DNA of 15,276 nucleotides from Lachnospiraceae bacterium UBA3802 (lineage in GTDB: Bacteria; Bacillota; Clostridia; Lachnospirales; Lachnospiraceae), in contig DFEM01000013.1 of the NCBI GenBank assembly GCA_002369155.1, forward strand, positions 1 through 15,276, written 5' to 3'. Below, one piece after another: positions 42 to 15,276 of the stretch (within the stretch, counting starts at the first letter, position 1; each line of letters begins with the position of its first letter). The notes under the pieces are model-generated. The model ran no database searches and had not been told where the DNA came from. It saw only the letters and a list, made by a program, of their open reading frames with translations. The position numbers were made by a program, and so were the translations under genes.

Positions 42-1036
42 TTTGGTTGTCCGAATTGATTGGGAACACCCGGCTGGTTTACATAAGGTTGCAGCTGCTG
101 TTGAGCCTGATCTGCTGTTTCATTGGATATCTGACCGTTTTGTTCAAGTTCCTGCTGCATCTGTTCTGCAGTCTTTTGAAGTTCTTCATCCTGATTCTTC
201 TTGGCAAGTTCTTCAAGTTCCTTGGCAATCTCTTCCTGATCCTTGGCAGTTAATTCACCGTCTTTTACAGAATCAAGTGCATTCTGGATTGCTTCTGCTT
301 CACGTTTATATTCATTGGGATTTTCTTCGCCGATATAATCGTAAATCTTGTTTTCAAAACGCTCTTTAACCTTGTCAACTTCAGTGGAATTTTCGCTTTC
401 CTTTAATTCCTCTTTGGCTTCATCAAGCATTTCATCAAGCTTTTCGATATCTTCAACACTCAAATCATGAGTTTCTTTTATCTCGGCTACGAGCTCTTCG
501 AGTTCTTCCTCTGCAGTCTTTTTCTCTTCTTCGAGAATATGGTTTTCAATTGCAATTTCTTTTGTTTTGGCCGGTATCATTGCCGTGGTCAAAACAAACA
601 TCGAACTTAAGAAGAGGAATAAGAACAATAACTTGTTTATTTTCATCGGGAATATCTTTCGCATGGAAATTCCTGCCGTCTTTTCAAGCGTATCGTTCTT
701 TTGCATCGTGGAAAAAATATCTTTTTTGCCTCTAAGCTCCATCGATGTTGTCACTCTTTCCTTGAAACCTTTCGAATCAAGTTTAAGAGCGGCTTCTTTC
801 ATGGAAGGATATCTTACAACCGTTATGATTATTCCCACTATTAAGGTAACAATGCAAAGGATAATTCCTATGATTGTTGCACTGTAAAAAGGAACTATCA
901 GTGAAATCAGCTGCATGAGTCCCCATAAAGAAAGACCGATTATAAGAAACAGTAAAAGGCCCTTGTAAAATTTGATTCTGCAAAGTCTTTTTCTTGCATT
1001 CTTTACTACTTTTTCGATTAATTTGTCAGCTTCCAT
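1..1036 (-). CDS. Three-helix membrane protein with coiled-coil and Gln-rich tail (C-terminus outside window)
   Basis: Reading frame open from ATG at 1036 to the left edge, 345 codons seen, no stop. The start follows AGGTGA and lies four bases after the stop of the ABC permease gene, so it is the next gene of that operon. Hydrophobic helices lie at about residues 26-46, 52-74 and 134-156. Between helices 2 and 3 a segment around residues 85-120 (LDSKGFKERVTTSMEL) resembles the soluble linker of large membrane proteins often found beside ABC-2 exporters and MoxR/DUF58 genes. After helix 3 comes about 150 residues of highly charged Glu/Lys-rich sequence, very likely coiled coil, then a Gln/Pro/Asn-rich tail. 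No catalytic motif is visible. Function is unknown; a structural or accessory role with the exporter is inferred only from context. Confidence 0.85.
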   Translation of the reverse strand, partial: MEADKLIEKVVKNARKRLCRIKFYKGLLLFLIIGLSLWGLMQLISLIVPFYSATIIGIILCIVTLIVGIIITVVRYPSMKEAALKLDSKGFKERVTTSMELRGKKDIFSTMQKNDTLEKTAGISMRKIFPMKINKLLFLFLFLSSMFVLTTAMIPAKTKEIAIENHILEEEKKTAEEELEELVAEIKETHDLSVEDIEKLDEMLDEAKEELKESENSTEVDKVKERFENKIYDYIGEENPNEYKREAEAIQNALDSVKDGELTAKDQEEIAKELEELAKKNQDEELQKTAEQMQQELEQNGQISNETADQAQQQLQPYVNQPGVPNQFGQPNQQQQGQQGQQGQQ

Positions 1037-1040
1037 ATGC

Positions 1041-2036
1041 TCACCTATTTGTTTTCTTTACTCTTTTTTTGACCGTTCTGACCTTACCCTTTACAGGATT
1101 TAAGAAGACAGCTGAAAGTCTTAACATTCCAAGTGAAATCAGAACCATTTCTATCATGCTTATCGGAGTCCATAACTTTAAGATGATATTTTTCTCCGTC
1201 ATATGCGGCAACAACTCTGCAACCGAGGTCATTCCTTTGACCGAAACATCTTCGATGTCATAACCGATTGTTGAACCGATTGCATCGAATATCATGTAAA
1301 TGGGATTAAATGTTCCAAGGTAAATCAGAAAATCTCCGTTTATGAAATCCTGGGTGGTAACCCAGTAAAAGAGATCATTATCGTAATACAAAGCACTATT
1401 GATTCCGGCAATAATCCATAAAAGAATTATCGGAAGCATAAATGTGAAAGCGAAATAAATCATCAGTGTCAGATAAGTAAGAATAACCGAAAGAATGGTG
1501 TTTTTAGTCAGTGCTGAGAAAAATATTCCAAAACATGAAATGAATCCGATAAATACAATCAGTACCAACCCGAGATACAGAAGCTGTATGAACGAAATAC
1601 CTCCGTATATAAATACAATTGCCAAAAGCGGAAATGTGGAAACAACCATAAATGAAAGAAGGATGAAATCCGATCCGTATTTTCCTTTGATTATTTCCCA
1701 GGGTGTCATTCTTGTCGTAAGCAAAACATCCAGCGTCTGTCTTTCTTTTTCAAGAGAAACACTTCCGGCCGTAATCGCCGGTGTGATGAATAAAAGCATT
1801 GTCGCTTCAACATATACCATTGAGATTAAATACCAGGCCAAAACACGATAAGAACATAAACCGTTCATCGCCGCAATGACAATACCGATGAAAAAGCAAA
1901 TACCGATGGGCGCAAGAAAAAGATTAATCAAAAGAGCGATAATCAATATTTTCGGTCTTTTCATGTCCATCGTCATTTCTTTGTATAAAACGGCGTTTCT
2001 TTTATTCTTTTTTAACTTCTTAGTCTGTTCGCTCAT
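1041..2036 (-). CDS. ABC-2 type transporter permease
   Basis: 331 residues with about six hydrophobic helices (near 28-52, 66-90, 124-145, 148-173, 180-210 and 288-312) and a basic N-terminus and C-terminus. The segment after helix 2, SLEKERQTLDVLLTTRMTPW at about 94-113, is the typical coupling-helix region of ABC-2 permeases. A long extracytoplasmic loop lies at about 212-285. The start ATG at 2036 follows AAGGAGA located within the last codons of the ATPase gene, and only one base separates the two genes, so they are translated together. With the ATPase it should form a membrane exporter or a mechanochemical transporter. Nothing in the sequence reveals the substrate. Confidence 0.93.
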   Translation of the reverse strand: MSEQTKKLKKNKRNAVLYKEMTMDMKRPKILIIALLINLFLAPIGICFFIGIVIAAMNGLCSYRVLAWYLISMVYVEATMLLFITPAITAGSVSLEKERQTLDVLLTTRMTPWEIIKGKYGSDFILLSFMVVSTFPLLAIVFIYGGISFIQLLYLGLVLIVFIGFISCFGIFFSALTKNTILSVILTYLTLMIYFAFTFMLPIILLWIIAGINSALYYDNDLFYWVTTQDFINGDFLIYLGTFNPIYMIFDAIGSTIGYDIEDVSVKGMTSVAELLPHMTEKNIILKLWTPISMIEMVLISLGMLRLSAVFLNPVKGKVRTVKKRVKKTNR

Positions 2037-2037
2037 C

Positions 2038-2985
2038 TTATCTCCTTTTTGCGGCTTCTTTAGTGTTGTTGCCGACTATTTGCATGAACAGGCTCTCCAG
2101 GGAGCCCTCTTCTCTGTAGAAGCTGCTTACAAGAATGTTTGCCCGGATAAGTGATGCAAGCATTCTTCCTTCATCATCCTTGGAACCTGTAAATACTATC
2201 TGCAATATATTTCCTCTTGCAGTAACTTTTTGTACAAAAGGATTCGACTGAAGTATGGCAAAGACATCATCTATCTGTTCTTCGTTAACCACGAGATTCA
2301 AAGGCGAAGACATTGCTGCCGCACGGTGTATCTCCTCAATGCTTCCCTGCAATACCAGATGACCTTTGTCGATGATACCGACCGAAGTACACATTTCGGC
2401 GAGTTCGGGAAGGATATGTGAACTTATAATAATGGTCTTTCCCATTGCCGAAAGGTTCTTTAAGATTTCCTTTAATTCAAATCTTGCCTTAGGATCGAGT
2501 CCGCTCGCAGGCTCATCAAGGAATAAAATATCGGGGTTATGTACCATTCCTCTTGCAAGACAAAGTCTTTGTTTCATTCCTCGGCTTAACCCGTTGACAT
2601 CCGTATCCTTTTTATGGGACAGATTTACGAGATCCAAAAGTTCATCCGTAAGTCTGTCGGCATCACTTCCGTATATTCCGTATGCACTTGCAAAAAAGTG
2701 AAGGTATTCCGAAGCGGTAAGGCTTTTGTAAACACCGAAATAATCAGGAACATATCCGACTTTTTCGGCAAGTTTTCTGTGATTTCTCAACATCTTTTCG
2801 CCGTCAATCAAAACTTCTCCCCCATCGGCTTTTAACAATCCGACACATATTCTCATTGTGGTGGTTTTGCCGGCTCCGTTGGAACCTACAAATCCGAAGA
2901 GTTCGCCTTCGTTAACCTTCAAATTGAAATCATTAAGTGCAAGGAATCTTCCGTATCTTTTATATAAGTGTTTGATTTCTATCAT
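2038..2985 (-). CDS. ABC transporter ATP-binding protein
   Basis: 315 residues, complete nucleotide-binding domain: Walker A GSNGAGKTT (34-42), signature LSRGMKQ (133-139), Walker B ILFLDEP (153-159) and switch histidine H190 in IISSH. At the Q-loop the usual glutamine is replaced by Asp81 (VGYVPDYFGVY), a variant I associate with one group of Firmicutes exporter ATPases. The roughly 100-residue C-terminal extension ending in EEGSLESLFMQIVG is usual for ATPases paired with ABC-2 permeases. It sits 30 bases after the large surface-protein gene and one base before the permease. The ribosome binding site is weak (GAGAG). It powers the permease encoded next; the cargo is unknown. Confidence 0.95.
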   Translation of the reverse strand: MIEIKHLYKRYGRFLALNDFNLKVNEGELFGFVGSNGAGKTTTMRICVGLLKADGGEVLIDGEKMLRNHRKLAEKVGYVPDYFGVYKSLTASEYLHFFASAYGIYGSDADRLTDELLDLVNLSHKKDTDVNGLSRGMKQRLCLARGMVHNPDILFLDEPASGLDPKARFELKEILKNLSAMGKTIIISSHILPELAEMCTSVGIIDKGHLVLQGSIEEIHRAAAMSSPLNLVVNEEQIDDVFAILQSNPFVQKVTARGNILQIVFTGSKDDEGRMLASLIRANILVSSFYREEGSLESLFMQIVGNNTKEAAKRR

Positions 2986-3015
2986 ATTGGACTCTCAACT
3001 CTTTCTGACTGATTA

Positions 3016-5775
3016 TTACTGATGCTTAACAGGTATTTCCGTATACGCTTTATATAAAACAATCGCTTCGGTACGCGACAGTCTGCAATTCTTGTTTTGA
3101 ATAACATTTGCGGCAATGTCGGACTTGGGGAATGCTACTACCAAAACATGATCGTTGTCAGGAGCATATTCATCCTCAAGATAATCGAGAACGCTTGCTC
3201 TTTTAACGGTTTTGTTAAATCCTCTGTACAGATTTCCGAGGGCCAATCCCATTATAATATCGCCTGATTTATGTGTTCTGTAATGAGAAGTAATATTATT
3301 ATTATAGCGATTCGAATATGAAGTTCCGTACCAAGAACTGTTTTTCTTTGAATCGTCTATATAATCTCCGGAATTTGCAACTACCGTTTCACCTGCTTTT
3401 ATCTCTTTGAAATAATAGTCTTTATATCCATCCGTATCCGTATAAACCTGTACGATAACATCTTCTAAAGATGTTGAATAATTATTCGTTACTCTGATAT
3501 TTTTCGCATCAGCTCCTCCTATTGAGAAGTCCGTAAGCAATGATACTTCCAGTCCACCCTGAGTTGCGTAAGCCGCCTCGGCTTTAAACGGCTGGCTTTC
3601 AAGCGCAACCTTGTTGGAAATGACACTCTGGAAATGATCGTATTCATTTCTGTAACGTACCGTATATGAAGAATAATCTATCTCTGAAGCAAAAAAGCTG
3701 CCTGAATCAAGACTGTAATTGGGGTCAACCTCCACTTCGTCGGTGAAGTCAACTGTATATTCCCTGGCCCTTGGAAGAGTAACATTTACAAAATCCACTT
3801 CCTTGGTAATTATTTCATCCGGGAACATAAGAGTAATAACATTAACATTAAGTCTTAAAACTCTTGTTGAAAAACCGAAACAGAAAATAATTACTGCCGT
3901 ACCTACCGCAAGGCATGGATAAATAACCCAAAGATTCCATGTTTTCTTCTTTTTGAGAAGAACAATGTATAATACAAGCATTGCTATCAGGTAAACAGCG
4001 ATAGCCGAAGCATATATTAAAACAGCAGGAGCAGGTGCGGAACCGGATGCTCTTACCAAATTTTCCTCGCTGTAATCTGGACCGCCCCAATAATAATATG
4101 TATTGGAAACTTTCTTCTCGTATTCGTCAGCTTCTCTTAATAATTCCTGTCCGATATATTTTTCGATAAGGTTTCTTACAAACTCTCCGGAATATTCATT
4201 CTTGGGAACAGGATTCTTTGTAAAGTCAAAAGCACAAAGAGCAATTTTGCCTTCACCGCTTTCCATGATTTTGGCAATAGGGAAATCTCCTGCCAAATCA
4301 TCATCAGCCATAAGAAGTTCATCATACTGATTATTCAGTGTCTCATCAATTCCCGTACAATCGACATCAATTTTTTTGTAAGTATCAACTGCCACAGGCT
4401 CTGAAGAGGTCGATAAATCAGGTCTCATATCGTATCCTGTATACGTATACGTCAAATACAAATATGCATAATGTCTTAAAAACTCATGATAATCATCTCC
4501 GAAAATCTGATCAAAGTACTCATCAAGAGCATATTCATCGCTTACCGAAGGATTCTGTTCAGCTAAAAACCACTTGGGATCGAATCCAAGCAAATTGCAA
4601 TACTCGTAATAGCCGTATAAATCTATTTCATACTCATCGTAACCGTATTCATTGAGAATATCTTCAAGCGTATCGGTCACATATCCGTATCTTTCATCAT
4701 AATATTTATAATGATATGAACCGTCCACATCGACATAAAATGCATCATCCTCAAAAAGATAAATATATGAAGGATCTATAAGATTGTTATATGCATCATA
4801 ATAATCGCCGTTTGCATCATAGTATCCGCCGTAATTGAAAATATAATCATTGTTGCCATCGCCATCGGAATCCGAATAATATGCCGAATTAAAGTAGTCA
4901 CTGTAATCATAGTAATAATAATTGTCATAAAATGAATCAGTGCTACCGTTATAATTCGAAGCACCTGAATTCAAGACATTTAAGTAAACATAATCTTCAA
5001 TTGCCAATCCAAGAGTGGTTCTTCTGGTAGTGGTGGATGTAACTGTTTCGTTTAAAATATTTCCTCTTAATCCGGATAAAGTCTTATTGGCGGTTGAACC
5101 CGTTCCTATAATAAGGAATCCGCCTTTTTGAAGCCAAAGCGTAAGTGCGCGAATCTGTTCCTTTGTAAGAATATCCGTTGAAAAATCAGTAATAAGAATA
5201 ACATCAAGCATCTGAAGCGAATAATAATCCGTGGGAAATGTTGATGCATTCATTTCAATAAGTGTTGTGGCCTTGTTGAAATCCGATAACAAATGAACTC
5301 TGTCCATATATGCAAGCGCAGTAAAATCATCGGTGAGGACACCGACTCTTATATCAAGCTTATTCTTGGATATTGTTATCTTTTCGAGTTCTTCCCACAA
5401 AACTTTTCCCTTTTTGTCTGTCATTCTGACATTAACAAATTCCGTGGGAACAGGTACTCCGATAACAAACTGTACGTTTTTGATTTCTCCTGCCGCCAAA
5501 GCTATTTCCTGCTCATAGAGAATATTATTGTTGCCGGAATTTGGAACAATTATCTGAATATATCCCTCAAAATTGGAAGTATTCTTATTCTCTACCGCGA
5601 TTGAAACAGGCGCGCCATACCCAACCAATACTTTTTGATTGTAACCGGCAGTCAGTTTCACTCCGAATTCATAGTTTTTCTTCTTTGCATAAACATAATT
5701 GGCAGGAAGTATCGCAAGCAATACTCCCACCAATAAAAAGCAAATCAGTCTTCTTGCAATTGTCTTTTTGTTCAT
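3016..5775 (-). CDS. Large exported membrane protein with GATase-like fold and Tyr/Asp/Asn-rich insert
   Basis: 919 residues; ATG at 5775 follows GGAGG with good spacing. Residues 1-30 look like a signal peptide (basic start, hydrophobic core, ANYVYA before KKK). A beta-rich domain (about 35-135) is followed by a segment (142-230) with the alpha/beta pattern of class I glutamine-amidotransferase-like folds (DVILITDFSTD, GGFLIIGTG), continued at about 497-545 (GEGKIALCAFDF). No catalytic Cys-His-Glu set is evident, so an enzymatic role is unlikely. The two halves are split by a Tyr/Asp/Asn-rich insert (about 275-400). Two helices lie at about 584-606 and 612-636, followed by a beta-rich tail of about 280 residues. 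It heads the ABC transporter genes and is probably the extracytoplasmic partner of that exporter. I do not recognise a named gene. Confidence 0.88.
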   Translation of the reverse strand: MNKKTIARRLICFLLVGVLLAILPANYVYAKKKNYEFGVKLTAGYNQKVLVGYGAPVSIAVENKNTSNFEGYIQIIVPNSGNNNILYEQEIALAAGEIKNVQFVIGVPVPTEFVNVRMTDKKGKVLWEELEKITISKNKLDIRVGVLTDDFTALAYMDRVHLLSDFNKATTLIEMNASTFPTDYYSLQMLDVILITDFSTDILTKEQIRALTLWLQKGGFLIIGTGSTANKTLSGLRGNILNETVTSTTTRRTTLGLAIEDYVYLNVLNSGASNYNGSTDSFYDNYYYYDYSDYFNSAYYSDSDGDGNNDYIFNYGGYYDANGDYYDAYNNLIDPSYIYLFEDDAFYVDVDGSYHYKYYDERYGYVTDTLEDILNEYGYDEYEIDLYGYYEYCNLLGFDPKWFLAEQNPSVSDEYALDEYFDQIFGDDYHEFLRHYAYLYLTYTYTGYDMRPDLSTSSEPVAVDTYKKIDVDCTGIDETLNNQYDELLMADDDLAGDFPIAKIMESGEGKIALCAFDFTKNPVPKNEYSGEFVRNLIEKYIGQELLREADEYEKKVSNTYYYWGGPDYSEENLVRASGSAPAPAVLIYASAIAVYLIAMLVLYIVLLKKKKTWNLWVIYPCLAVGTAVIIFCFGFSTRVLRLNVNVITLMFPDEIITKEVDFVNVTLPRAREYTVDFTDEVEVDPNYSLDSGSFFASEIDYSSYTVRYRNEYDHFQSVISNKVALESQPFKAEAAYATQGGLEVSLLTDFSIGGADAKNIRVTNNYSTSLEDVIVQVYTDTDGYKDYYFKEIKAGETVVANSGDYIDDSKKNSSWYGTSYSNRYNNNITSHYRTHKSGDIIMGLALGNLYRGFNKTVKRASVLDYLEDEYAPDNDHVLVVAFPKSDIAANVIQNKNCRLSRTEAIVLYKAYTEIPVKHQ
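4576..4938 (-). other. Tyr/Asp/Asn-rich insert with EF-hand-like calcium loops
   Basis: Codons for residues about 280-400 of the surface protein. Within it lie DSDGDGNND (302-310), which fits the DxDxDG..D calcium loop of dockerins, EF-hands and thrombospondin type 3 repeats, and weaker relatives DANGDYYD (320-327) and DVDGSYHY (349-356). Tyrosine is extremely frequent, often in pairs or runs (DNYYYYDYSDYF). It interrupts an otherwise plausible alpha/beta domain, so it reads as a surface loop. Calcium binding is inferred from one good loop only. Confidence 0.55.
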
Positions 5776-5795
5776 TGTAGCCTCCGAAAGCCTTT

Positions 5796-5822
5796 AAACA
5801 AGATGCTTAAACACACTTGTTT
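5796..5822 (-). promoter_or_regulatory. Inverted repeat at the expected transcription start
   Basis: AAACAAG at 5796-5802 pairs with CTTGTTT at 5816-5822, with 13 bases between. The start point predicted from the neighbouring promoter is near 5817, so the repeat spans +1. It could be a repressor operator or a 5'-terminal stem-loop of the mRNA. It lacks a following U-run and is not a terminator. Confidence 0.45.
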
Positions 5823-5823
5823 G

Positions 5824-5852
5824 ATTATATAATAATATCAGTCGAAAAACAA
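5824..5852 (-). promoter_or_regulatory. Sigma-A-type promoter for the surface-protein/ABC operon
   Basis: On the minus strand, TTGTTT (5852-5847), 17-bp spacer, then a perfect TATAAT (5829-5824). The -35 begins just past the stop codon of the anti-sigma gene. The 79-base gap it occupies is the longest between genes in this half of the window, which supports a separate transcript for the surface protein and ABC genes. Confidence 0.7.
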
Positions 5853-5854
5853 AT

Positions 5855-6766
5855 TCAGTCGCTTTCGCTTATTTCCTCTATTTTTTCTATACGATAGATT
5901 CCATCTTTGCCGGGAATAAAGCTTATTACTACCTTATATTTTCCCAATTCTTCGAATCCGTCATCAGGATCGATAATGGCATCAAAGCAGTCACCCACCT
6001 CAAATCCGTTGAAATTGTCGTTACATAATCTTTCATCTCCGATGACCTCTTTAACAATTACAAAAGCAGCTGTTTCTTCGTAATCATCGTATATCAGCAA
6101 AATATCAACTATCGCTGTTTCCTGATTTCCTTTTACGATTCCTTCAGAAACGGTACCGGGAGTTTGTGCATCGCCAAAATCATAATCGCCTTCATCCTCT
6201 CCCTGAGCCACATGCGTCAGTTCATTTCTGTCGCCGTTTTCCAATCCTGCAGCGTAATCAATGCTTTTATTATCCGTTCCTGAGTAAGTATTTTTTGAAT
6301 TACCGTCGTTATTTGGGTATTCATCGGTTTCTTCAGCTTCGGCAACAGTTTCCCAATCAGCCGACTCAGCCGTTTCCGATACATAATAATCGTCCGATGC
6401 GGCAGCGTCTGTATATTCAACTGCGTTTGGTACTGCATCATACATCGTTCCCGTACTGTTTTTGTTTTTGGTTGCTGCCAAACCTCCGAAGAACAACAAA
6501 GGTACGACAGCTATTAGAAGAATTGCCGCAGAAGGAATTGCCGCGAATATCCAAACCGGGAATTTCTTCTTTTTCTTTGCAGGGACATAATCCCTTTCTG
6601 CACCGGCATTTACTTTTTCATTTACTGTTTCAACAGTGTCAGACTTAATCGATGATGTTTCTTTTTGTTCCTCGCCGGCATCAATTGCCGCTTCGATTTT
6701 TCCCCAGAGATCGGGCAAATCGTTCATTACGGCTTCTTTATATTCTTTTGATAAATCTTTACTCAT
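5855..6766 (-). CDS. Anti-sigma-factor-like single-pass membrane protein
   Basis: 303 residues. The cytoplasmic N-terminus carries LPDLWGKIEAAID (17-29), a short helix like those found at the start of Lachnospiraceae proteins encoded next to sigma factors. A KKKKK stretch precedes one helix (about 70-93). Outside follows a low-complexity acidic Ser/Thr/Asp/Glu-rich spacer (100-205) and a compact beta-rich domain (about 207-300) with two cysteines (248, 260). The start ATG at 6766 overlaps the sigma gene by eight bases and has AAGGAGG inside that gene, so the two are translationally coupled. The inferred job is to hold the sigma factor at the membrane until the outer domain senses a signal. 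No zinc-binding HxxxCxxC anti-sigma motif is present, so the assignment rests on context and topology. Confidence 0.82.
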   Translation of the reverse strand: MSKDLSKEYKEAVMNDLPDLWGKIEAAIDAGEEQKETSSIKSDTVETVNEKVNAGAERDYVPAKKKKKFPVWIFAAIPSAAILLIAVVPLLFFGGLAATKNKNSTGTMYDAVPNAVEYTDAAASDDYYVSETAESADWETVAEAEETDEYPNNDGNSKNTYSGTDNKSIDYAAGLENGDRNELTHVAQGEDEGDYDFGDAQTPGTVSEGIVKGNQETAIVDILLIYDDYEETAAFVIVKEVIGDERLCNDNFNGFEVGDCFDAIIDPDDGFEELGKYKVVISFIPGKDGIYRIEKIEEISESD

Positions 6767-7292
6767 AGCCCAACCTCCTTAATTTTTTGATAGCTTCCTG
6801 ATACCTCCAGGTAACAGTTCCCATGGGTATCTGCAAAGCCTCCGATATTTCATTGAAAGTCATATCCGACAAAATCTTCATGCTGACAACCGTACTCTCT
6901 TTTTCGGAAAGTGTCGCCAGAGCCTCAGTAACCGTCATATCTCCTATTACCGTCTCTTCAACCTTGTCGTTTGATACGGGTTCAATTCCTTCTTCCACAA
7001 AATCATCCACTGCTATGGAACGAGAATTCTTTCTGACAAAATCAATTGCCATATTTTTCGCAATCGTGGCAAGGAAAGTTTTGTGCGAGTCTTTCAGTTC
7101 CATGGTTTCCGCCATGGAATAAAGCTTCACAAAAAAATCCTGCGTCACATCTTCGGCATTTTCTTTTTGATTAACGATACCGTATATAATAGGATAAATG
7201 TATCCCAGGTACTCATCATATATGTCTTTGAGCCCGGACTTGTCTTTGTTTTTTATCCTGTTGATACAGTCCGCAAACTTTTCCTGAGTCAA
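6759..7292 (-). CDS. ECF-type RNA polymerase sigma factor
   Basis: About 177 residues. The sigma-2 region (roughly residues 10-90) includes the ENAEDVTQDFFVKLY segment, the usual core-binding and -10 recognition block, and TFLATIAKNMAIDFVRK. Sigma-4 (about 120-175) carries the helix-turn-helix TFNEISEALQIPMGTV followed by a basic helix. I place the start at TTG 7292 because AGGAGG ends four bases upstream of it and there is no early ATG; a GTG at 7310 would add six residues but would place the ribosome binding site inside the gene and has no such site of its own. The next gene is its probable anti-sigma partner. It lies 64 bases downstream of the GH9 cellulase stop, with no visible terminator between them. 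Target promoters cannot be read from the window. Confidence 0.9.
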   Translation of the reverse strand: MTQEKFADCINRIKNKDKSGLKDIYDEYLGYIYPIIYGIVNQKENAEDVTQDFFVKLYSMAETMELKDSHKTFLATIAKNMAIDFVRKNSRSIAVDDFVEEGIEPVSNDKVEETVIGDMTVTEALATLSEKESTVVSMKILSDMTFNEISEALQIPMGTVTWRYQEAIKKLRRLGYE

Positions 7293-7302
7293 GTTTCCTC
7301 CT
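7290..7302 (-). promoter_or_regulatory. Ribosome binding site deciding a TTG start
   Basis: On the minus strand, TTAGGAGGAAACTTG: a perfect AGGAGG (7302-7297), a four-base spacer, then TTG (7292-7290). The spacing is on the short side but usable, and no ATG lies nearby. Confidence 0.65.
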
Positions 7303-7356
7303 AACTCCACTTAAGATACGAATAAGTTCTATCTTTTTATGGGATTATTTTTAATT

Positions 7357-10164
7357 TTATTTGGGTTCTTTTCCAAATACGATGTTTCCGCCTGTTTTAA
7401 TCACTACTCCGTCAGCATTTTTATAAGAATAGTCATTTGAAATGTTGATATTGCTCCAATCCGAAGGATGAAGAGCAAAACTTAATGTAAACGTATCTCC
7501 CTTTTTAAGAGAATATGAATCTTTTATCGTGATTACACATTTCTTGTCGCAATCCGTACCGCTTGCATCCGATATTGCACCGGATACGCTGCTTAATGCG
7601 GTGTATGTTCCGTCCTTGGCATTTACCGCCGAATGGTAATTGTCAAAAGTAAACGAAGATTTATTATCTGCCGTAAAATAATAAGTTATATCCGTTTTGG
7701 ATAAGTCAATCGTCTCATCGGAATTGTTGGTTATCTCTATCGTTCCCGAAACACTGCTCTTACCGTCTCCGGTATAATCGATCTTAACTTTTACCTTGTC
7801 GTTGCCCGAATCCACACTCGAGGGTGAAACCGTGTTATTATTGTTATTGTTATTGTTATTATTATTGTTGTTATTATTGTTGTTGGAGTTCGAGGAATTA
7901 TTTCCGTTCTTATCATTTGAAGCGCCGCCGTTTGCATTTACCACAGACTCTCCCGCTTTGTCTCCGCTTGGAGGTGTCGTTCCGAACACAAGAACTCCGT
8001 TTTCGTAAACAGCCATATTGGTGGCAAGCGTTGCGTTTCCGCTTGCGAGGCCCTCAAATGAAGGGTCGTTTGAATCATCCCATACTCCTTTGGTATTTCT
8101 GATTCTCACCTGTATCTCTTTTTTATACTCAGACTGACCGCCGGGATACAAAGATTTGTCGTCAAATACTATCGATACATAATAAATGTTTTTGGCTTCA
8201 TCCCATACCTTAAGTCCCTCGCAGCTTCCTGATTGCATATAATTGGTCGTAACCTCGATATCCGAAGCGCTTCCTCCGGCTTTGACAACCTCCGAAAGAT
8301 CCACGAAATATCTTAATTCAATGCTTTCGGGAACTCTTGCCGGCCAGCCTGTAATATTATATACAAAAGCTTTGACTTCTATAAAATCGTCTCCGGTAAC
8401 ATTTATTGCTCCGTCTGCATATATCTCAAGTCCGGGTGTTTCAACCGCACCGAAATCTTTAATTGTCTGTCCTTTGTATTTTGAATAAAGATGTGCAAGA
8501 AGTCCCGTAAAGCCCGCATTATAATCGCATGCAACTTCATTTACGGTATAATCGCTGACCGTATCGTTATAACCGTCCGATGCATCCGGGCCTCCTACAA
8601 GAGCACCGTATAATATGTGTCTTGCAGCAGCAGGCTCATTCATATTGTCGCAATATGAACCCTGAGCGGTTCTGTGATGCGGGTTTTTGGGATAATCCTT
8701 ACCGAATCCTATCTCAAACGATCTTCCTGTATCTCCGAGAGCATATCCTGCCTGTGAAAGAGCAAAATCCTCATAAATCTTTTTCTTTTCGGGAGAACAT
8801 CCGTCCCACTCTGCATATATCGATGCAATATAACCGGTCGTGGTGGCATATCTTAAAGAGCCCCATGAATCAAGCCATGCCAGTCCTTTTGGTGTATAAG
8901 TAATCTTTTCACCGTTGTATCCTACACTCCACCAGTCAAGATGTTTTTCCAGGTCGGTTTGATACATTGTATCGTCGGTGTTTTTAGCCAAAAGCAAAGC
9001 CGCACCGATATGAACGTCATCCCAGCACATTGCCCATTTATGATTTCTGTCCGCTTTGGAATAGTCTTCTTTGGCATTGGTCAAATACGTCTCATCACCT
9101 GTCGCCATGTAAAGCCATACACCGGACCAGGCAAGTTCGTCGTTATAACCGCTCCAAGAATTATAAAAGCCGTTGGCCGCAGTATATCCGGCATCAGACT
9201 TTGTGTCTCTTGCGAACTTATAAAGGCTCTTTGCATGCTTTAAGCATAAATCGCTGTATTCTTTATCAGTATCCTTAAATACTATCGAGCATGCCGCAAG
9301 CGATGCTGCAGTTTCTCCGCAGACGGCAGAGCCGGGGTTTTGTCTGGTGACGCAATATGAAGGTCTCTCCATTTTTACATCAACGACTTCGGCACTTCCC
9401 CAGAAGGAATGGTCTTTGTTTCCGTCTCCGACCTGATAATAATAAACTTCATCCGAAGGATGACATTTAATAAAATAATCATTTGCCCATTTAATGTTTG
9501 ATAATGCATATTCAAGCTGACCTGATTCTTCGTATGCATCTTTGTCCTCATATACGGACCAGGCAAGCATTGATGCGGTATACGCCATCGGAAGATTGAA
9601 TTTTACATTATCTCCGGCGTCAAACCAGCCGCCCGATAAATCAAGTCCCGCATCGGAACCGTCATTTAAGCAGGAATCTCCTCTCCAGTTGCATCTTACT
9701 TCTTCGGGTAAATCTCCCGACCTTTGCAATTCGTAAAACAGAAGTGATTTCTGAAGAGCCTCTCCGTAATTGTACTTTCCCGTACCTTTGGTGCCCTCAT
9801 AACCGCTTCCTTCCTGCGATAATTTACCGGTATTTAAAATAGAATTAACCGGAGAGTTTGCGGATTTTCCGTTTTCCTCCCCGGATTTTTCATCATCTTC
9901 GGTCAACAAAGCAGATGTGTCCGTGTTATCGGACACATCATTTATATCTTTGTTATCACCGTTATCGGATCCTGTTTTATTTGTTTCCACTCCGGCAACT
10001 TCAACACCCAAAGCATTGTTTTTCTTTTTTTCGGTAACGGCAATTCCTATAATCAGTGCAGCCACCGCCACGATAATAAAAGCTCCGACCGGAATTGCAA
10101 TGAGGAAAAACTCTTTTATGCTCTTCCTGTTTTCCTCTAATTCGTTATCATTGTTCTTTTTCAT
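7357..10164 (-). CDS. Membrane-anchored GH9 endoglucanase with CBM3c and C-terminal CBM3
   Basis: 935 residues from ATG 10164. A cytoplasmic N-terminus and one helix (about 19-42) anchor it outside the cell, with an acidic Asn/Asp/Gly linker to about 130. The GH9 domain (about 131-565) shows GGWFDAGDNVKFNLPMAY with catalytic-base aspartates 182 and 185, the PHHR signature (about 495-498), and YTVNEVACDYNAGF with acid Glu543. A CBM3c follows (about 577-730, NITGWPARVPESIELRYFVD), the usual partner that makes GH9 enzymes processive. Then come a 17-Asn linker (761-777) and a second CBM3 (791-935) keeping the SDWSN tryptophan of cellulose-binding members. It hydrolyses beta-1,4-glucan. The start overlaps the sensor gene by 17 bases and has GAAGGA upstream; an in-frame ATG at 10209 lacks a binding site. 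No sortase motif, S-layer domain or dockerin. Confidence 0.95.
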   Translation of the reverse strand: MKKNNDNELEENRKSIKEFFLIAIPVGAFIIVAVAALIIGIAVTEKKKNNALGVEVAGVETNKTGSDNGDNKDINDVSDNTDTSALLTEDDEKSGEENGKSANSPVNSILNTGKLSQEGSGYEGTKGTGKYNYGEALQKSLLFYELQRSGDLPEEVRCNWRGDSCLNDGSDAGLDLSGGWFDAGDNVKFNLPMAYTASMLAWSVYEDKDAYEESGQLEYALSNIKWANDYFIKCHPSDEVYYYQVGDGNKDHSFWGSAEVVDVKMERPSYCVTRQNPGSAVCGETAASLAACSIVFKDTDKEYSDLCLKHAKSLYKFARDTKSDAGYTAANGFYNSWSGYNDELAWSGVWLYMATGDETYLTNAKEDYSKADRNHKWAMCWDDVHIGAALLLAKNTDDTMYQTDLEKHLDWWSVGYNGEKITYTPKGLAWLDSWGSLRYATTTGYIASIYAEWDGCSPEKKKIYEDFALSQAGYALGDTGRSFEIGFGKDYPKNPHHRTAQGSYCDNMNEPAAARHILYGALVGGPDASDGYNDTVSDYTVNEVACDYNAGFTGLLAHLYSKYKGQTIKDFGAVETPGLEIYADGAINVTGDDFIEVKAFVYNITGWPARVPESIELRYFVDLSEVVKAGGSASDIEVTTNYMQSGSCEGLKVWDEAKNIYYVSIVFDDKSLYPGGQSEYKKEIQVRIRNTKGVWDDSNDPSFEGLASGNATLATNMAVYENGVLVFGTTPPSGDKAGESVVNANGGASNDKNGNNSSNSNNNNNNNNNNNNNNNNNTVSPSSVDSGNDKVKVKIDYTGDGKSSVSGTIEITNNSDETIDLSKTDITYYFTADNKSSFTFDNYHSAVNAKDGTYTALSSVSGAISDASGTDCDKKCVITIKDSYSLKKGDTFTLSFALHPSDWSNINISNDYSYKNADGVVIKTGGNIVFGKEPK
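7834..7884 (-). repeat. Poly-asparagine codon tract (17 codons)
   Basis: Seventeen consecutive AAT/AAC codons in mixed order encode an uninterrupted Asn run between the two CBM3 modules of the cellulase. Because the two codons alternate irregularly, it is not a simple trinucleotide array, yet it stays prone to slippage. It acts as a flexible linker. Confidence 0.9.
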
Positions 10165-13100
10165 CACCGACGTCTTCCTTCTTTTCTTCTTTTTGAGGTT
10201 TCTCGTCATATTTAAGACGAATATTGTTTATATCATCCATGGAACCGCCTCCGTTATCATCGGCGTCCATCTTGATCTCTCCTTTTTCCACAAGTCTTAA
10301 GAATGCTTCAACCACATCTTCGGTTAACTGTGTTCCTGCCACTTCTTTGATGATTGAAACCACCTTTTCGAAATTCATACGTTTTCTGTAAGGTCGATTG
10401 GAATACATTGCATCGAATGTATCCGCAACAGCAATAATCTGTGCAACTCTGGGTATTCCATCACCGACAAGTCCTTTGGGATAACCTTTTCCGTCAGGTC
10501 TTTCATGATGGAATCTGGCACCGATGGCAAGTTCCGGCATGATACTGATATCTTTAAGCACGTTATATCCCTTGGTGGAATGGGATTTGATAAGCGTAAA
10601 TTCTTCTTCTGTAAGTTTGCCGGCCTTGTTTAATACTTCAGGCTTTATGCCGATTTTGCCTATATCATGCAAAAGTGCGATGTTGTAATAATTTTCCACA
10701 GTGTCTTCATCGTAGCCGAGTTCCTTGGTAAGCAATGCTGTATACTCAGCCACACGGATGGAATGACCTTTGGTATACTGGTCTTTCATATCGATGGTTC
10801 TCGCAAATGCTTCTGTCATCTCACGAATAAAGAGCTTTGTTTCCTGTTGTTTCTTTAAAAGACTCTTTGTCTTTTTGCTGACAACAAGGACTATAATTTC
10901 ATATAAAAGCAATCCGAACACTATTGCAAGGAACGCATAAAACAGAAACGTTTCGTAAAAAGCTTTTTGCTTAACTATGGTTACGGACATTTCGTTATGG
11001 CCGTTGCCCGTAGAATCATCCAGTTTCATGACGAAATTATAGGTTTTTCCGCGAAGGTTGGTATATTCTACCGGCTCCAGATCTGTTCTGTTGACCGTTT
11101 TGGCTTCTTTGTCGAAACCATCAAGATAGTAAGTTACTTTGGGATTCATCAAAGAGTAAGTATAAACAAATCCGTAAATGGTAACTCTCTTGGTGGCCGC
11201 AGAGACATTAAAAACTCCGCTTGAATCCGGATATATCATCTTTCCGTCTGCTTCTATGTAAGGCACTGCCATTTTTATAACCTGAACATCACCGAACGAT
11301 TCATTGATATTTACTTTTGCAACGCCTGTTGATCCGGCAATATACAAATCTCCCTCGTCAGTCAAATCACTGTAGGAGTTTGCAGTGGACACACACGGCA
11401 AACCGTTTGACACGCTGTAATAAACCGTATTGATTTCTTCATTGGCAATAAGTTCATCGGCATTGACGACATAGATACCGTTGCTGCTTAATACCCACAT
11501 TTCCCCTTTATCGTTTTCATAAAGATCGAAGTTATTCGAATACGGGAAATTCTTAATGGTAACAACCTCGTAATCCTCTGTCATATAACTGAGCGAATTA
11601 CTTGTAACTATCCAATATATTCTTCTGGCATCATCTCTTTTTATTCTCATAACCACCATTGAAGAAAGGCCTTCTTTTAATCCTATACCTTCAATGTTGT
11701 TGTTTCTTACAATGTATATACCGCCGCCGTCGGTACCGAGAAGCACTTCGCCTTTGAATCCCTGTGTAGATGTCAAAACCTCGGGATTACCGAGACCTGA
11801 AGCGGAGGTTATAACATCGGTAATGCCTTTTTTCTTGTCTATCATCGCAAGGCCTTCGGAGCAGGCTGCAAAAACATATCCTTGCTCGGGAGCTTCGTAA
11901 ACCGCTCTGACTTTGTTTGAAGGAAGGCCGTTGCTTTGGCTGTAACTTCTGATATTTCCGTCATCAAAACAAAGAAGTCCCATCTCACTGTATGTTGAGA
12001 TCCAAAGAATATCTTCGCTGTCTCTTATAATCGATCTTATTCTGATTCCTTCCAAAAGGTCGATAAGGTCGGTATAACCGTTATATTTTTCAGGCAAATC
12101 AACTTTCTGCTTGAGCGCAATCCTGCTTACTTTGTCTCCGCCTTCAAGTGCAATAAGACCTGTATCCGTACCCAAAAGCAAATAAGATTTATATCTGCAG
12201 GTTGTATTTACTACTTCTTCTTCCAAACCGTATTTTGCAAAAATGTCAGTGAAACGGTTTCTGACGACTTTCTGAACGCCCTGTCTGGATGACGCAAACC
12301 AAAGATTGCCTTCATAATCCGTAAGCATCTGGTCAATGGAATTGTTCATGGGAAGATTATAGATGGGTCTGAATCCTGCCTCATCACGCATTCCTATACC
12401 GTTATCTGCACAAATCCATAATTTACCGTCAACATACTCCATAGAATTGATTTTCTTTAAGGAACCCACGGATATTTCTTTGGCATTTTTCATGCCTTCA
12501 AATAAATCTCCGTAATAGATTTCCGAATTATCGGTACCTATGTATATATGTCCGGGATTCTTGGAATCGGGTAAGATGCAATTGGCATCCTGAATGCCGA
12601 ATCTCGTCATATCATAATATCCCGTAACCTTACAGTTTTCGATTGTAAATACATTTCCCTCCTGGGTAATTCCATAGATAATTCCGGTATTATTGTCGGT
12701 TCTCAACTCATGAATATACGCATCGTTAAGAGCAGGCGCATCGAGCTTGTAAAGATTCTGATATTCGTCTATTACATTGATTCCGTGTGTGGTTGCAATG
12801 ATAATATTGCCGGCTTCATCTTCGGTAATACTTCTGATGGATAAAGACTGAGAGCCGGATTCATCTTTAAAAATCTTAATCTCTCCTTTTTCCATCACTG
12901 CCGTTCCACTGTCGTTTGAACCAATCCAAAGACGGTTTTGGCTGTCAACATAAAGAGCCGTAACACTGGCTATTCCTGTTGATGAATCTATTCTCTCAAA
13001 TGTATTGCCGTCGTATCTTATAAGACCGCTGTAACTTCCTATCCAAATGAATCCTTCTTCTGTTTCCGCTATTGCATTGGCTTCCGAAGTGGGAAGTCCG

Positions 13101-13357
13101 TTGCTGTTATTGTAAAGAAATGCGGAATAGCCTTCATTCTGACCCGTAAAATCAATATTAACCTTGTCGTTATCCGCACCCGTAATAGTTTCCGCATGCA
13201 CATAATCGCCAAGGAAAATCACGCCCGCTCCCGCTAAAGAAACAGTTAAAACAAATAAAAGGACAAGGCTGAAAATTCTTCCGGCCCGTCCTTTTTTATT
13301 TTTGTTGAAAAATTCAAATAAATTCAAGTTGTTTAAAGCATTATCATATCTTCCCAT
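10148..13357 (-). CDS. Membrane sensor: propeller repeats, Y_Y_Y domain and HD-GYP output
   Basis: 1069 residues; ATG at 13357 follows GAGGGG. One helix near 28-50 is followed by a large extracellular part with two-component-regulator propeller repeats (GLPTSEANAIAETEEGFIWI at 87-106, then blades with LWIGS/LWIST/MWVLS cores to about 690) and a Y_Y_Y-type domain (about 720-795, VTYYLDGFD). A second helix (803-827) and a short coiled segment lead to a cytoplasmic HD-GYP domain: H865, HDIGK (897-901), HHERPDGKGYP (950-960), all metal-site and GYP residues kept, so an active c-di-GMP phosphodiesterase is expected. The tail is Lys/Glu-rich. Propeller/Y_Y_Y ectodomains occur in polysaccharide-sensing hybrid regulators of Bacteroidetes. 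The 3' end overlaps the GH9 gene, so a role in sensing cellulose breakdown is a reasonable inference; the ligand is unproven. Confidence 0.93.
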   Translation of the reverse strand: MGRYDNALNNLNLFEFFNKNKKGRAGRIFSLVLLFVLTVSLAGAGVIFLGDYVHAETITGADNDKVNIDFTGQNEGYSAFLYNNSNGLPTSEANAIAETEEGFIWIGSYSGLIRYDGNTFERIDSSTGIASVTALYVDSQNRLWIGSNDSGTAVMEKGEIKIFKDESGSQSLSIRSITEDEAGNIIIATTHGINVIDEYQNLYKLDAPALNDAYIHELRTDNNTGIIYGITQEGNVFTIENCKVTGYYDMTRFGIQDANCILPDSKNPGHIYIGTDNSEIYYGDLFEGMKNAKEISVGSLKKINSMEYVDGKLWICADNGIGMRDEAGFRPIYNLPMNNSIDQMLTDYEGNLWFASSRQGVQKVVRNRFTDIFAKYGLEEEVVNTTCRYKSYLLLGTDTGLIALEGGDKVSRIALKQKVDLPEKYNGYTDLIDLLEGIRIRSIIRDSEDILWISTYSEMGLLCFDDGNIRSYSQSNGLPSNKVRAVYEAPEQGYVFAACSEGLAMIDKKKGITDVITSASGLGNPEVLTSTQGFKGEVLLGTDGGGIYIVRNNNIEGIGLKEGLSSMVVMRIKRDDARRIYWIVTSNSLSYMTEDYEVVTIKNFPYSNNFDLYENDKGEMWVLSSNGIYVVNADELIANEEINTVYYSVSNGLPCVSTANSYSDLTDEGDLYIAGSTGVAKVNINESFGDVQVIKMAVPYIEADGKMIYPDSSGVFNVSAATKRVTIYGFVYTYSLMNPKVTYYLDGFDKEAKTVNRTDLEPVEYTNLRGKTYNFVMKLDDSTGNGHNEMSVTIVKQKAFYETFLFYAFLAIVFGLLLYEIIVLVVSKKTKSLLKKQQETKLFIREMTEAFARTIDMKDQYTKGHSIRVAEYTALLTKELGYDEDTVENYYNIALLHDIGKIGIKPEVLNKAGKLTEEEFTLIKSHSTKGYNVLKDISIMPELAIGARFHHERPDGKGYPKGLVGDGIPRVAQIIAVADTFDAMYSNRPYRKRMNFEKVVSIIKEVAGTQLTEDVVEAFLRLVEKGEIKMDADDNGGGSMDDINNIRLKYDEKPQKEEKKEDVGDEKEQ

Positions 13358-13401
13358 CGCATTCCCCTCACGATAGATGAAATCTACTCAATCAAATTAA
13401 T

Positions 13402-13430
13402 ATTTTATCATATTATGGGTATTATTTCAA
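13402..13430 (-). promoter_or_regulatory. Sigma-A-type promoter for the sensor/cellulase operon
   Basis: On the minus strand, TTGAAA (13430-13425), 17-bp spacer, TAAAAT (13407-13402), about 45 bases before the sensor start codon. It lies in the 111-base gap after the HAD gene, the only such gap upstream of this operon. Confidence 0.6.
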
Positions 13431-13468
13431 ACTTAAGGACACTTTTGGGATGTATAAAAATACTTATT

Positions 13469-14122
13469 TTAAACCAATCCTTCGAAGTAATCTTTCACTT
13501 TAAGCAAATCTTTAAAAATCCTGTGGCACAAAGCACTGATTTCCTCGTTCGGTTCCAGCATATCCGGCACCATCACGGGAAACGCATTTGCCGCATGTGC
13601 TGCCTTTATTCCGTTAAAAGAATCCTCGATGATATACGCTTCTTTTGCATCAATTTGCAGTTTTTCGGCTGCCTGAAGAAAAATTTCGGGGTTGGGTTTT
13701 GAATTATTAACCATATCGCCGCCGACAACAACGTCAAAATACTTAAGGATATCCGCATCCCTTAACTGATTTGTCACCGTCTCAACTCTTGTCGAAGAAG
13801 CCAAAGCCGTCTTGACATTATTCGCCTTTAAGAAGGATAAAAGTTCTTTAACTCCCGGCTTCATCGGAAGTCTTCCTCCGTCATACCTTGAATGATATTC
13901 CAAGGAAATTTTTTTCTTAAATTCCGCATACGGGAATCTGTCCCCGTACGTTTTCGTAAAAAGATCGTCTGTCGCCTTATCATTCAATCCGATACATTTA
14001 AGCATCAGCTCTTCAATGCCCGGAATGTCGTTTTCTTTGGCTATCTCAAGCCAAAGGTCACAAATAACTCTTTCGGAATCAAAAATGACTCCGTCCATGT
14101 CAAAAATAACTGCTTTTATCAT
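13469..14122 (-). CDS. HAD-family hydrolase, beta-phosphoglucomutase-like subgroup
   Basis: 217 residues. All four HAD motifs are visible: FDMDG with nucleophile D8 and D10, ALASST (106-111) with Ser109/Ser110, Lys142 in SKPNPEIF, and IEDSFNGIKAA (165-175) with acidic E166/D167. The alpha-helical cap lies between about 15 and 85. The DxD nucleophile motif and the SKPNPEIF and IEDS signatures fit phosphoglucomutase/phosphatase-like HADs that act on small phosphorylated sugars, but the substrate cannot be fixed from sequence. The start overlaps the stop of the phosphatase gene by one base (TAATG), with GGAGG upstream, so they form an operon. No clear terminator follows. Confidence 0.93.
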   Translation of the reverse strand: MIKAVIFDMDGVIFDSERVICDLWLEIAKENDIPGIEELMLKCIGLNDKATDDLFTKTYGDRFPYAEFKKKISLEYHSRYDGGRLPMKPGVKELLSFLKANNVKTALASSTRVETVTNQLRDADILKYFDVVVGGDMVNNSKPNPEIFLQAAEKLQIDAKEAYIIEDSFNGIKAAHAANAFPVMVPDMLEPNEEISALCHRIFKDLLKVKDYFEGLV

Positions 14123-14583
14123 TATATCCTCCGCTTAATATATTCAAGTAATCCTCTGCAGCCTTCTTCTATCTGTCTGTAAGCCGTGTCGAAATCGTCT
14201 GTATACCAGGGGTCCGCAATCTGCTTCCCGGGTGTGGACGAATAATCCATGCATAGAGATATCTTATCATCTTTTCCGCCGAAAAATCTGTCACGCATAA
14301 TACGATGATGAATATCCTCCATTGCGATTATATAATCAAACTCATCATAATCGCTTTTCCTAACCTGCCTGGCGCGATGACCGCTACAGTCAATACCGTG
14401 CCTTTTCAATTCGGCACGGGCAGGCGGATATACCGGATTGCCCAGTTCTTCCGTGGAGGTAGCCGCAGATTCAATATAAACTTTATCTGCAATCCCCTCT
14501 TTCTTAACCATATCCTTAAAAATATACTCTGCCATGGGCGAACGACAAATGTTGCCCCAGCAGACGAACAGTACTTTAATCAT
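14122..14583 (-). CDS. Low-molecular-weight protein-tyrosine phosphatase
   Basis: 153 residues from ATG 14583. The P-loop CWGNICRS (C8 to S15) supplies the Cys nucleophile and Arg14, and DPWYTDDFD (124-132) supplies the general acid Asp124, the two marks of this family. Length matches the usual 150-160 residues. An upstream in-frame ATG at 14613 would add ten residues unlike the family and has no binding site; the chosen start has only a purine-rich AGAAGAAA. It dephosphorylates phosphotyrosine proteins or small phosphoesters and overlaps the HAD gene by one base. Its first codons are repeated, in damaged form, 159 bases upstream, and the region upstream is an integration scar, so its native promoter may have been replaced. 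Confidence 0.93.
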   Translation of the reverse strand: MIKVLFVCWGNICRSPMAEYIFKDMVKKEGIADKVYIESAATSTEELGNPVYPPARAELKRHGIDCSGHRARQVRKSDYDEFDYIIAMEDIHHRIMRDRFFGGKDDKISLCMDYSSTPGKQIADPWYTDDFDTAYRQIEEGCRGLLEYIKRRI

Positions 14584-14630
14584 GCTTTGTTTTCTTCTTT
14601 CAAATAGTTTCATTTTTCGGGTTTTTATAA

Positions 14631-14649
14631 GGTATAAACGAGGTATAAA
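14631..14649 (+). repeat. GGTATAAA direct repeat pair
   Basis: GGTATAAA at 14631-14638 and 14642-14649, 11 bases apart, about one helical turn. The same octamer recurs at 14839 and 14851 on the other side of the degenerate phosphatase start. This is consistent with recombinase arm-binding sites. Confidence 0.5.
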
Positions 14650-14682
14650 AACGAATGTCCATCTGCGGAAATGCCGATGTTT

Positions 14683-14742
14683 TCAATGTTTCAAGGCTAC
14701 GCTCCAAATCCTGCCGTGGCATATGAACAGTACCTTAATCAT
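14683..14742 (-). pseudogene. Degenerate copy of the phosphatase 5' end
   Basis: ATG at 14742 opens a 19-codon frame beginning MIKVLFICHGRIW, against MIKVLFVCWGNIC in the intact gene. Thirty of the first 38 bases match the intact start at 14583-14546. Similarity ends after ATTTG, just where the P-loop arginine codon should be, and a stop follows six codons later. A plausible AGGA site lies upstream. CHG is itself a common family variant, so this is probably the start of a diverged homologue rather than a fresh duplicate. Confidence 0.65.
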
Positions 14743-14797
14743 TCTTACAAATCCTCATTTTTCCTTGATTTTACCCTGATTATTTTATATCAATTTT

Positions 14798-14828
14798 GGC
14801 ATATATTGGCATATTTTTGCATATATTT
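14798..14828 (+). repeat. Three GCATATWTT repeats at helical spacing
   Basis: GGCATATATT (14798-14807), GGCATATTTT (14808-14817) and GCATATATTT (14819-14828) follow one another at 10-11 base spacing. They lie between the recombinase remnant and the broken phosphatase start. They could be sites for an excisionase or another DNA-bending protein. Confidence 0.45.
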
Positions 14829-14838
14829 ACCGGCAAAA

Positions 14839-14874
14839 GGTATAAAATTCGGTATAAAATTAAAATTTTATACC
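14839..14874. repeat. GGTATAAAATT direct and inverted repeats (hairpin)
   Basis: GGTATAAAATT at 14839-14849 and again at 14851-14861, then after AA its exact inverse AATTTTATACC at 14864-14874. The second and third copies form an 11-bp perfect stem. It lies 18 bases past the recombinase-remnant stop. On the plus strand it is followed by TCGG and seven T, so it resembles a terminator in that direction, but no plus-strand gene precedes it. An attachment-site arm role fits better. Confidence 0.6.
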
Positions 14875-14892
14875 TCGGTTTTTTTACGTATT

Positions 14893-15018
14893 TTACACTA
14901 CATTCGTCACTCTGATGACCTCTTCTTTGGCATCTTCAAAGTTTAAATGGGTATAAATATTAAGAGTTACCCCGATATCCGAATGCCCCATCAAATACTG
15001 TAAAGCTTTAGGATTCAT
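14893..15018 (-). pseudogene. Tyrosine recombinase (phage-type integrase) C-terminal remnant
   Basis: 41 codons ending in TAA: MNPKALQYLMGHSDIGVT followed by LNIYTHLNFEDAKEEV. This is the end of the catalytic domain of integrases of conjugative elements and phages, with the conserved GH histidine and the nucleophilic tyrosine (IYTH). The whole N-terminal DNA-binding and most of the catalytic domain, including the first Arg, are missing; in-frame TAA lies three codons before the ATG. The ATG overlaps the TGA of the lipoprotein gene, so the break lies close to 15018. It cannot be active. It marks the inward end of a former integrative element. Confidence 0.85.
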
Positions 15019-15245
15019 CTTTGATTAATTTTTTCGTTTTCACTTAAATCATCATTTGAAAGTAAAACATCCGTCTCTTCTTCAGATTCAGTTACCGTTC
15101 CTTGATCAATTTGAACTTCTACTGGAGATTCATCTATAATCTCAATAGCATAGTTGTCAATTGGAACCATATCGGTATTCGCCTGCTGACATCCAATTGC
15201 ACTTGATAATATACAAACGAGTACAATACTCTTTAATCGTTTCAT
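15015..15245 (-). CDS. Small acidic lipoprotein, C-terminus probably truncated
   Basis: 76 residues; ATG at 15245 follows AAAGGA with good spacing. Residues 1-19 are a lipoprotein signal (MKRLK, hydrophobic core, SSAIGC with the lipidated Cys19). The mature part is short, acidic (runs of Glu/Asp) and without a recognisable fold, so it is probably disordered at the outer membrane face. Its TGA overlaps the first codon of the recombinase remnant, and the last codons (ENEKINQR) run into that junction, so the frame may have been cut by the same rearrangement that removed the recombinase N-terminus. I do not recognise the family. Only 31 bases lie upstream and show no clear promoter. Confidence 0.7.
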   Translation of the reverse strand: MKRLKSIVLVCILSSAIGCQQANTDMVPIDNYAIEIIDESPVEVQIDQGTVTESEEETDVLLSNDDLSENEKINQR

Positions 15246-15276
15246 GTAACATCCTTTATTTCGAAAAACTGAAATT

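Follow-up and report, generated by a model that had tools for sequence, protein, structure and literature searches.

Introduction

The ectodomains of the hybrid two-component systems (HTCS) of Bacteroidetes bind plant oligosaccharides with high specificity (PMC3243724), and a review describes a scissor-like movement for one of them, BT4663 (PMC8534201). In Xanthomonas, GdpX2 and GdpX3 carry a Reg_prop/Y_Y_Y sensor on a protein of cyclic di-GMP (c-di-GMP) turnover with an output of the GGDEF class (PMC6637768). Clostridium perfringens ReeS, a clostridial sensor with "RE and YYY" domains between two membrane helices, controls sialidase genes and has a histidine kinase as its output (PMC3762733). 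We analyzed a 15,276-nucleotide stretch of DNA (the window) from Lachnospiraceae bacterium UBA3802 (contig DFEM01000013.1, positions 1 to 15,276). It encodes a 1069-residue receptor with an HTCS-like ectodomain fused to an HD-GYP domain (10148..13357, on the minus strand like the receptor, promoter and GH9 features given below), directly followed by a glycoside hydrolase family 9 (GH9) cellulase gene. Its sensor is of the type found in GdpX2 and GdpX3, but its output is of the breakdown type, and it does not end in a histidine kinase as ReeS does. No study of an HD-GYP receptor with a propeller/Y_Y_Y ectodomain was found in the open-licence literature. We consider this protein, with a probability of about 0.68, to be a kinase-free receptor phosphodiesterase in a single polypeptide, HTCS-like outside the cell and an HD-GYP enzyme inside.

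A double propeller receptor with an HD-GYP output

Pfam marks Reg_prop in four stretches of the receptor (4e-24) as well as HD_5 (5e-28) and HD. The domains were placed with the open reading frame list, Pfam, comparison with PDB sequences, an AlphaFold model (mean predicted local distance difference test score, pLDDT, 86.9; predicted template modeling score, pTM, 0.68) and the fold matches of that model. An N-terminal membrane anchor (residues ~25-48, 13214..13285) coincides with model helix 25-46, its hydrophobic stretch judged by eye without a topology program. Two propellers follow, at residues ~69-368 (12254..13153) and ~369-690 (11288..12253). The preliminary description of this locus had proposed structure prediction and a blade count, and counting the model strands by hand gives seven blades in each. 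The first is also covered by single-propeller alignments over ~69-367 and the second by the whole-length alignment to HTCS ectodomains. Next comes a Y_Y_Y-like beta domain (residues ~691-800, 10958..11287), placed from the model and fold matches, which aligns with HTCS ectodomains as far as residue 798. Pfam Y_Y_Y is marked in 22 of the 120 best homologues listed.

In fold, the ectodomain is matched best, and over its whole length, by Bacteroides HTCS ectodomains, among them that of the heparin sensor BT4663. Apart from these and the HD-GYP protein PmGH, the matches shown are propellers of unrelated proteins. Model and fold matches thus agree on the double propeller plus Y_Y_Y-type domain that is common to BT4663, BT3049 and BT4673. 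The ectodomain is the sole part shared with these systems. They continue into kinase, receiver and AraC DNA-binding domains, none of which was found in the receptor by Pfam (E<=1) or NCBIfam (E<=0.1), and Pfam gave no GGDEF output. The propeller/Y_Y_Y ectodomain and the lack of a kinase, both noted earlier from the sequence, therefore hold, with Reg_prop coming from Pfam and the Y_Y_Y-like domain from the model.

A continuous transmembrane and linker helix (residues 804-858, 10784..10948; helix from the model, membrane position from sequence) leads into the HD-GYP domain (residues ~850-1024, 10286..10810), which was assigned by Pfam, PDB comparison, alignment and fold match. The HDIGK and HHERPDGKGYP motifs reported in the preliminary description are both present. 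This part of the receptor matches five solved HD-GYP chains with E values of 5.6e-39 to 1.5e-21, and the inactive Bd1817 at 0.0026. With a numbering offset derived by hand, D859 corresponds to D183 of PmGH, H865 to H189, and H897-D898 to the HD pair. Further catalytic-site residues, whose roles are given in PMC4159591, align at K901, H926, H950-H951, G958-Y959-P960, I968, D979, D982 and R988, and R991 stands where PmGH has K317. All are invariant in a 109-row alignment, except the nearly invariant I968. The HD pair, HHExxDGxGYP, the catalytic D, the K and the ligand series H..HD..H..HH..D are thus kept, supporting an intact catalytic site as read from sequence.

Seven of the eight PmGH metal ligands are retained. 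E185 alone is replaced, by Y861, which is also invariant in the 109 rows. The receptor therefore has the Tyr or Phe of the Y/F subfamily at this position and not the Glu or Asp of the trinuclear (E/D-T-G) subfamily. As described in PMC4159591, Y/F enzymes are changed at E185 and expected to be binuclear, and a review attributes one-step hydrolysis to dinuclear HD-GYPs and cleavage of cyclic GMP-AMP (3'3'-cGAMP) to some HD-GYPs (PMC8177086). The earlier statement that HD-GYP proteins hydrolyze c-di-GMP is too general. The window protein differs from the Y/F phosphodiesterases with which it shares these features by its large extracellular propeller receptor and by a conserved C-terminal tail motif (residues 1034-1046, 10220..10258) defined by invariant positions in the same alignment. 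Of the 115 homologues with an HD-GYP domain, 107 match a loose pattern for this motif, which was not seen in the tails shown for six further HD-GYP frames from the window's genome, some of which are incomplete.

In the mechanism we propose, the double propeller and Y_Y_Y-like domain would form a dimer that binds a ligand outside the cell, most probably an oligosaccharide. Ligand-driven movement, perhaps scissor-like by analogy with BT4663, would be transmitted through the 804-858 helix and alter the activity of the cytoplasmic HD-GYP domain. This domain would act on a cyclic dinucleotide, the likeliest being c-di-GMP cleaved to pGpG, and the resulting change would shift motility or attachment with no kinase step. 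In the window's lineage, the receptor gene would head an operon with the GH9 gene, so that receptor and enzyme would be made together. Dimerization, the class of ligand, the enzyme activity and its direction, and the physiological output are what we infer here.

The junction with the GH9 gene

The cellulase gene (7357..10164; open reading frame list and Pfam) encodes 935 residues with Glyco_hydro_9 (1.4e-145), two CBM_3 stretches (1.2e-15), an Asn-rich linker and a hydrophobic N-terminus resembling a membrane anchor. A second GH9 gene lies elsewhere in the genome (G000:C171:18274-19674). As read from the open reading frame list and the junction, the end of the receptor gene overlaps the start of the GH9 gene by 17 bp (10148..10164). 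This overlap, reported before, is correct for the ATG at 10164, which has the ribosome-binding-like AAGGAAG (10174..10180, read from sequence) nine bases upstream and a homologous ATG in genomes G015 and G026. The GH9 frame stays open further upstream, and a start at the alternative ATG at 10209 would lengthen the overlap to 62 bp. Ahead of the receptor gene, a promoter scan and upstream alignment point to a promoter-like TTGAAA-17-TAAAAT with TG before the second hexamer (13402..13430). The TTG and TnnTAnAAT columns are identical in 11 of 11 aligned upstream regions and the TG in 10 of 11.

Within the genus, the receptor is directly beside GH9 in 13 of 31 genomes (G000, G003, G005, G007, G008, G009, G010, G013, G015, G020, G023, G026 and G029), so the pair does recur in related genomes, where the preliminary description had suggested looking for it. 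Three of the pairs are partial: G007 has only the receptor end, G015 only the receptor tail, and in G008 only the GH9 start is on the receptor's contig. The junction ranges from the 17-base overlap of the window to a 23-base gap. At least one base overlaps in seven pairs (17 in the window; 14 in G026 and G015; 4 in G003, G013 and G008; 1 in G023), and G009, G005, G010, G007, G020 and G029 have gaps of 6 to 23 bases. A conserved exact overlap was rejected, as junction length varies among the 13 pairs.

Given the tight junctions and the conserved promoter-like site upstream, receptor and GH9 genes are likely to be co-transcribed. The single mRNA assumed in the preliminary description is to this extent backed by the 13 genomes and the one conserved site, co-transcription being the deduced part. 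Translational coupling is plausible from the overlap, as a reading of it rather than an observation, and the overlap itself is not conserved in length.

Directly downstream of GH9 (5855-7310), an extracytoplasmic function (ECF) sigma factor gene (Sigma70_r2, r4) is followed by an overlapping gene for a 303-residue putative anti-sigma factor, which has a single hydrophobic stretch and matches nothing in Pfam at E<=1. This pair is a possible actual regulator of the cluster. An Rfam scan of the window at gathering scores gave no known regulatory RNA, the PHROGs search no phage-type family at E<=1e-3, and Pfam no SusC/SusD-type gene among the seven window genes scanned.

The receptor family in other bacteria

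An ectodomain search scored 7997 candidates and returned at least 3606 homologues at E<=1e-5; HD_5 is marked in 116 of the 120 best homologues listed. In named genomes, we surveyed the best 80 of at least 578 confirmed loci. They come from Lachnospiraceae (47), Oscillospiraceae (20), Eubacteriaceae (8) and Erysipelotrichaceae (1), with four lacking a family name. Judged by a loose list of title words, 61 of these 80 fit isolates from ruminants or the gut, in a genome collection that we take to be rich in them. Among the carriers are Ruminococcus flavefaciens FD-1, R. albus KH2T6 and Eubacterium ruminantium FB3002, and the named relative Lachnospiraceae bacterium G41 (L134) has the receptor-GH9 pair as well. 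The GYP pattern is found in 72 of the 74 whole receptor frames and not in L159 and L165.

A downstream frame is present at 67 of the loci and lies on the same strand, and was hence scanned, at 51. The neighbors encode a YchF GTPase (6), GH9 (5), DUF6465 (5), GGDEF (4), an ATP-binding cassette (ABC) transporter (4), EAL (3) or GH3 (2), among the 25 families listed of 56. All five GH9 neighbors are on contigs of the window's genus (G003, G005, G009, G010 and G013).

The output part of the receptor is exchanged in more distant members. Eight of these were hand-picked and scanned by Pfam. Four have an HD-GYP output (L049, L050, L052 and L060), one HD-GYP with a receiver (L058) and one GGDEF (L059). 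The other two, L051 and L056, have a HisKA-HATPase-receiver-Hpt output, each directly adjoined by an HD-GYP gene. In three genus genomes (L052, L054 and L055), a paralogous receptor comes immediately after a fliW gene in the list of frames; Pfam was applied to FlgK-type, flagellin-type and FliW genes in L052 and to FliW alone in L054 and L055. The window's own genome, 81% complete, has 35 GGDEF, seven HD_5, one PilZ and two flagellin-type matches. Given the swapped outputs, the adjoining HD-GYP genes, the flagellar-side paralogue and the genome's GGDEF/HD_5 set, the ectodomain family is tied to cyclic-dinucleotide turnover more firmly than the window receptor is to cellulose.

Two of the propeller receptors (L060:7090-11163 and L059:7438-11424) have an extra multi-helix membrane part weakly resembling ECF_trnsprt or 5TM-5TMR_LYT. 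This part is perhaps why databases label some receptors of this kind "energy-coupling factor transport system substrate-specific component".

Alternative explanations

Several observations count against the proposed receptor phosphodiesterase made together with a cellulase. Pfam finds no Y_Y_Y in the whole receptor or in residues 686-800 searched alone, and the pTM of 0.68 makes the placement of the domains less sure than the domains themselves. The top PDB sequence match of the HD-GYP part is 5z7c, a 3'3'-cGAMP phosphodiesterase. The promoter scan taken alone detects no more such sites here than would arise by chance. The next closest orthologues have other neighbors: that of G004 has a radical S-adenosylmethionine gene before it and a protein-kinase gene after it, and those of G014 and G028 are followed by a histidyl-tRNA-synthetase-like gene and a leucine-rich-repeat/choline-binding-repeat gene. 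On a quick maximum-likelihood tree of 84 receptors, GH9 adjacency is a single change, in a clade with a Shimodaira-Hasegawa approximate likelihood ratio test (SH-aLRT) value of 99. The tree excluded ten duplicate and three short rows, and the count of changes excluded ten more (G008 and nine that are incomplete or at contig edges). G008, which has the pair, falls inside this clade, and the long branches G032 and G032b are distant from it. The receptor-cellulase link thus appears confined to one clade.

A model along the lines of the preliminary description, in which the receptor senses cello-oligosaccharides released by the adjoining GH9 enzyme and lowers c-di-GMP on cellulose, we regard as unlikely. 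It draws on the tight junctions, on the one promoter-like site ahead of both genes, and on a report of four HTCS ectodomains that, when tested, bound pieces of the polysaccharide degraded by their own locus (PMC3243724). The same source describes a beta-glucan HTCS with no binding of cello-oligosaccharides of three to six sugars and binding of cellobiose too weak to fit. In an order-wide sample of 344 genomes, ectodomain matches at E<=1e-100, a set that includes receptors with other outputs, co-occur with GH9 (21/36 vs 55/308, odds ratio 6.4, p 6e-7, kinship ignored). For receptors of HD-GYP length, a class set by open-frame length and identity and not by a domain scan, the counts are 6/14 vs 70/330 (p 0.09) and, outside the window's genus, 4/12 vs 70/330 (p 0.30); counting only GH9 matches above the Pfam cut-off gives p 0.04 and 0.27. 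GH9 is found in 30 of the 31 genus genomes, beside a receptor or not, with G012 giving no match. Since GH9 is so widespread, the pairing arose once and relatives have other neighbors, the GH9 link does not show a glucan ligand. Glucan sensing tied to GH9 was not upheld by the neighbor survey, the tree or the co-occurrence of HD-GYP-length receptors. A glucan ligand is accordingly doubtful, and the neighbor evidence speaks no more for it than for some other family-wide ligand; the ligand is probably common to the family and not set by the adjoining GH9. The observations of the preliminary description were right and the outline of its mechanism is plausible, but the cellulose part was overdrawn.

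A rather stronger contender, though still short of even odds, is that an insertion placed the receptor gene between the HAD and GH9 genes, under a promoter common to receptor and GH9, while the products are functionally unlinked, with the ECF sigma pair possibly governing GH9. In G016 (locus L073, ~1080-1200 after reverse complement), the order is HAD, GH9, sigma; the receptor is absent from between HAD and GH9, and TGTTAAAAT lies a short way ahead of GH9. This indicates either insertion of the receptor into the HAD-GH9 site or its loss from there. Thirteen further genus genomes have GH9 and no receptor in the stretch taken around it; the survey of surroundings covered genomes other than G017, G021 and G024. 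Conservation also largely extends to the genes around the pair (sigma, putative anti-sigma, ABC, HAD and phosphatase), so receptor and GH9 are not singled out, and receptor orthologues elsewhere have other neighbors. Against simple incidental adjacency, the two genes never overlap by more than 17 bases or stand more than 23 bases apart, although near-full-length receptors fall to 63% identity with that of the window. This clade therefore seems to have retained co-expression. Least probable of the three is an HD-GYP domain that acts on another substrate (3'3'-cGAMP or pGpG) or serves mainly as a regulated binding partner of GGDEF proteins. The 5z7c match and the substrate diversity and GGDEF interaction described in PMC4159591 and PMC8177086 suggest it; the catalytic residues invariant across 109 rows and the 35 GGDEF matches of the genome argue against it.

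Implications

The wider receptor family is more interesting than the cellulase link of the window. To our knowledge, little is understood of how fiber-degrading rumen Clostridia detect plant material and decide whether to swim or to attach. Tentatively, these proteins may form a major receptor family among Clostridia of rumen and gut that feeds extracellular plant-glycan cues directly into cyclic-dinucleotide turnover, a Gram-positive counterpart of the HTCS that would control behavior (motility, attachment) and not transcription. Its HTCS-type ectodomain would be fused or paired with HD-GYP, HD-GYP-receiver, GGDEF or phosphorelay-plus-HD-GYP outputs, with one lineage locked into a cellulase operon. 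As named isolates carry the receptor, experiments are possible beyond an organism known only from a metagenome. An HTCS-like ectodomain with a directly attached HD-GYP domain would offer a concrete, testable route for fiber sensing in rumen Clostridia.

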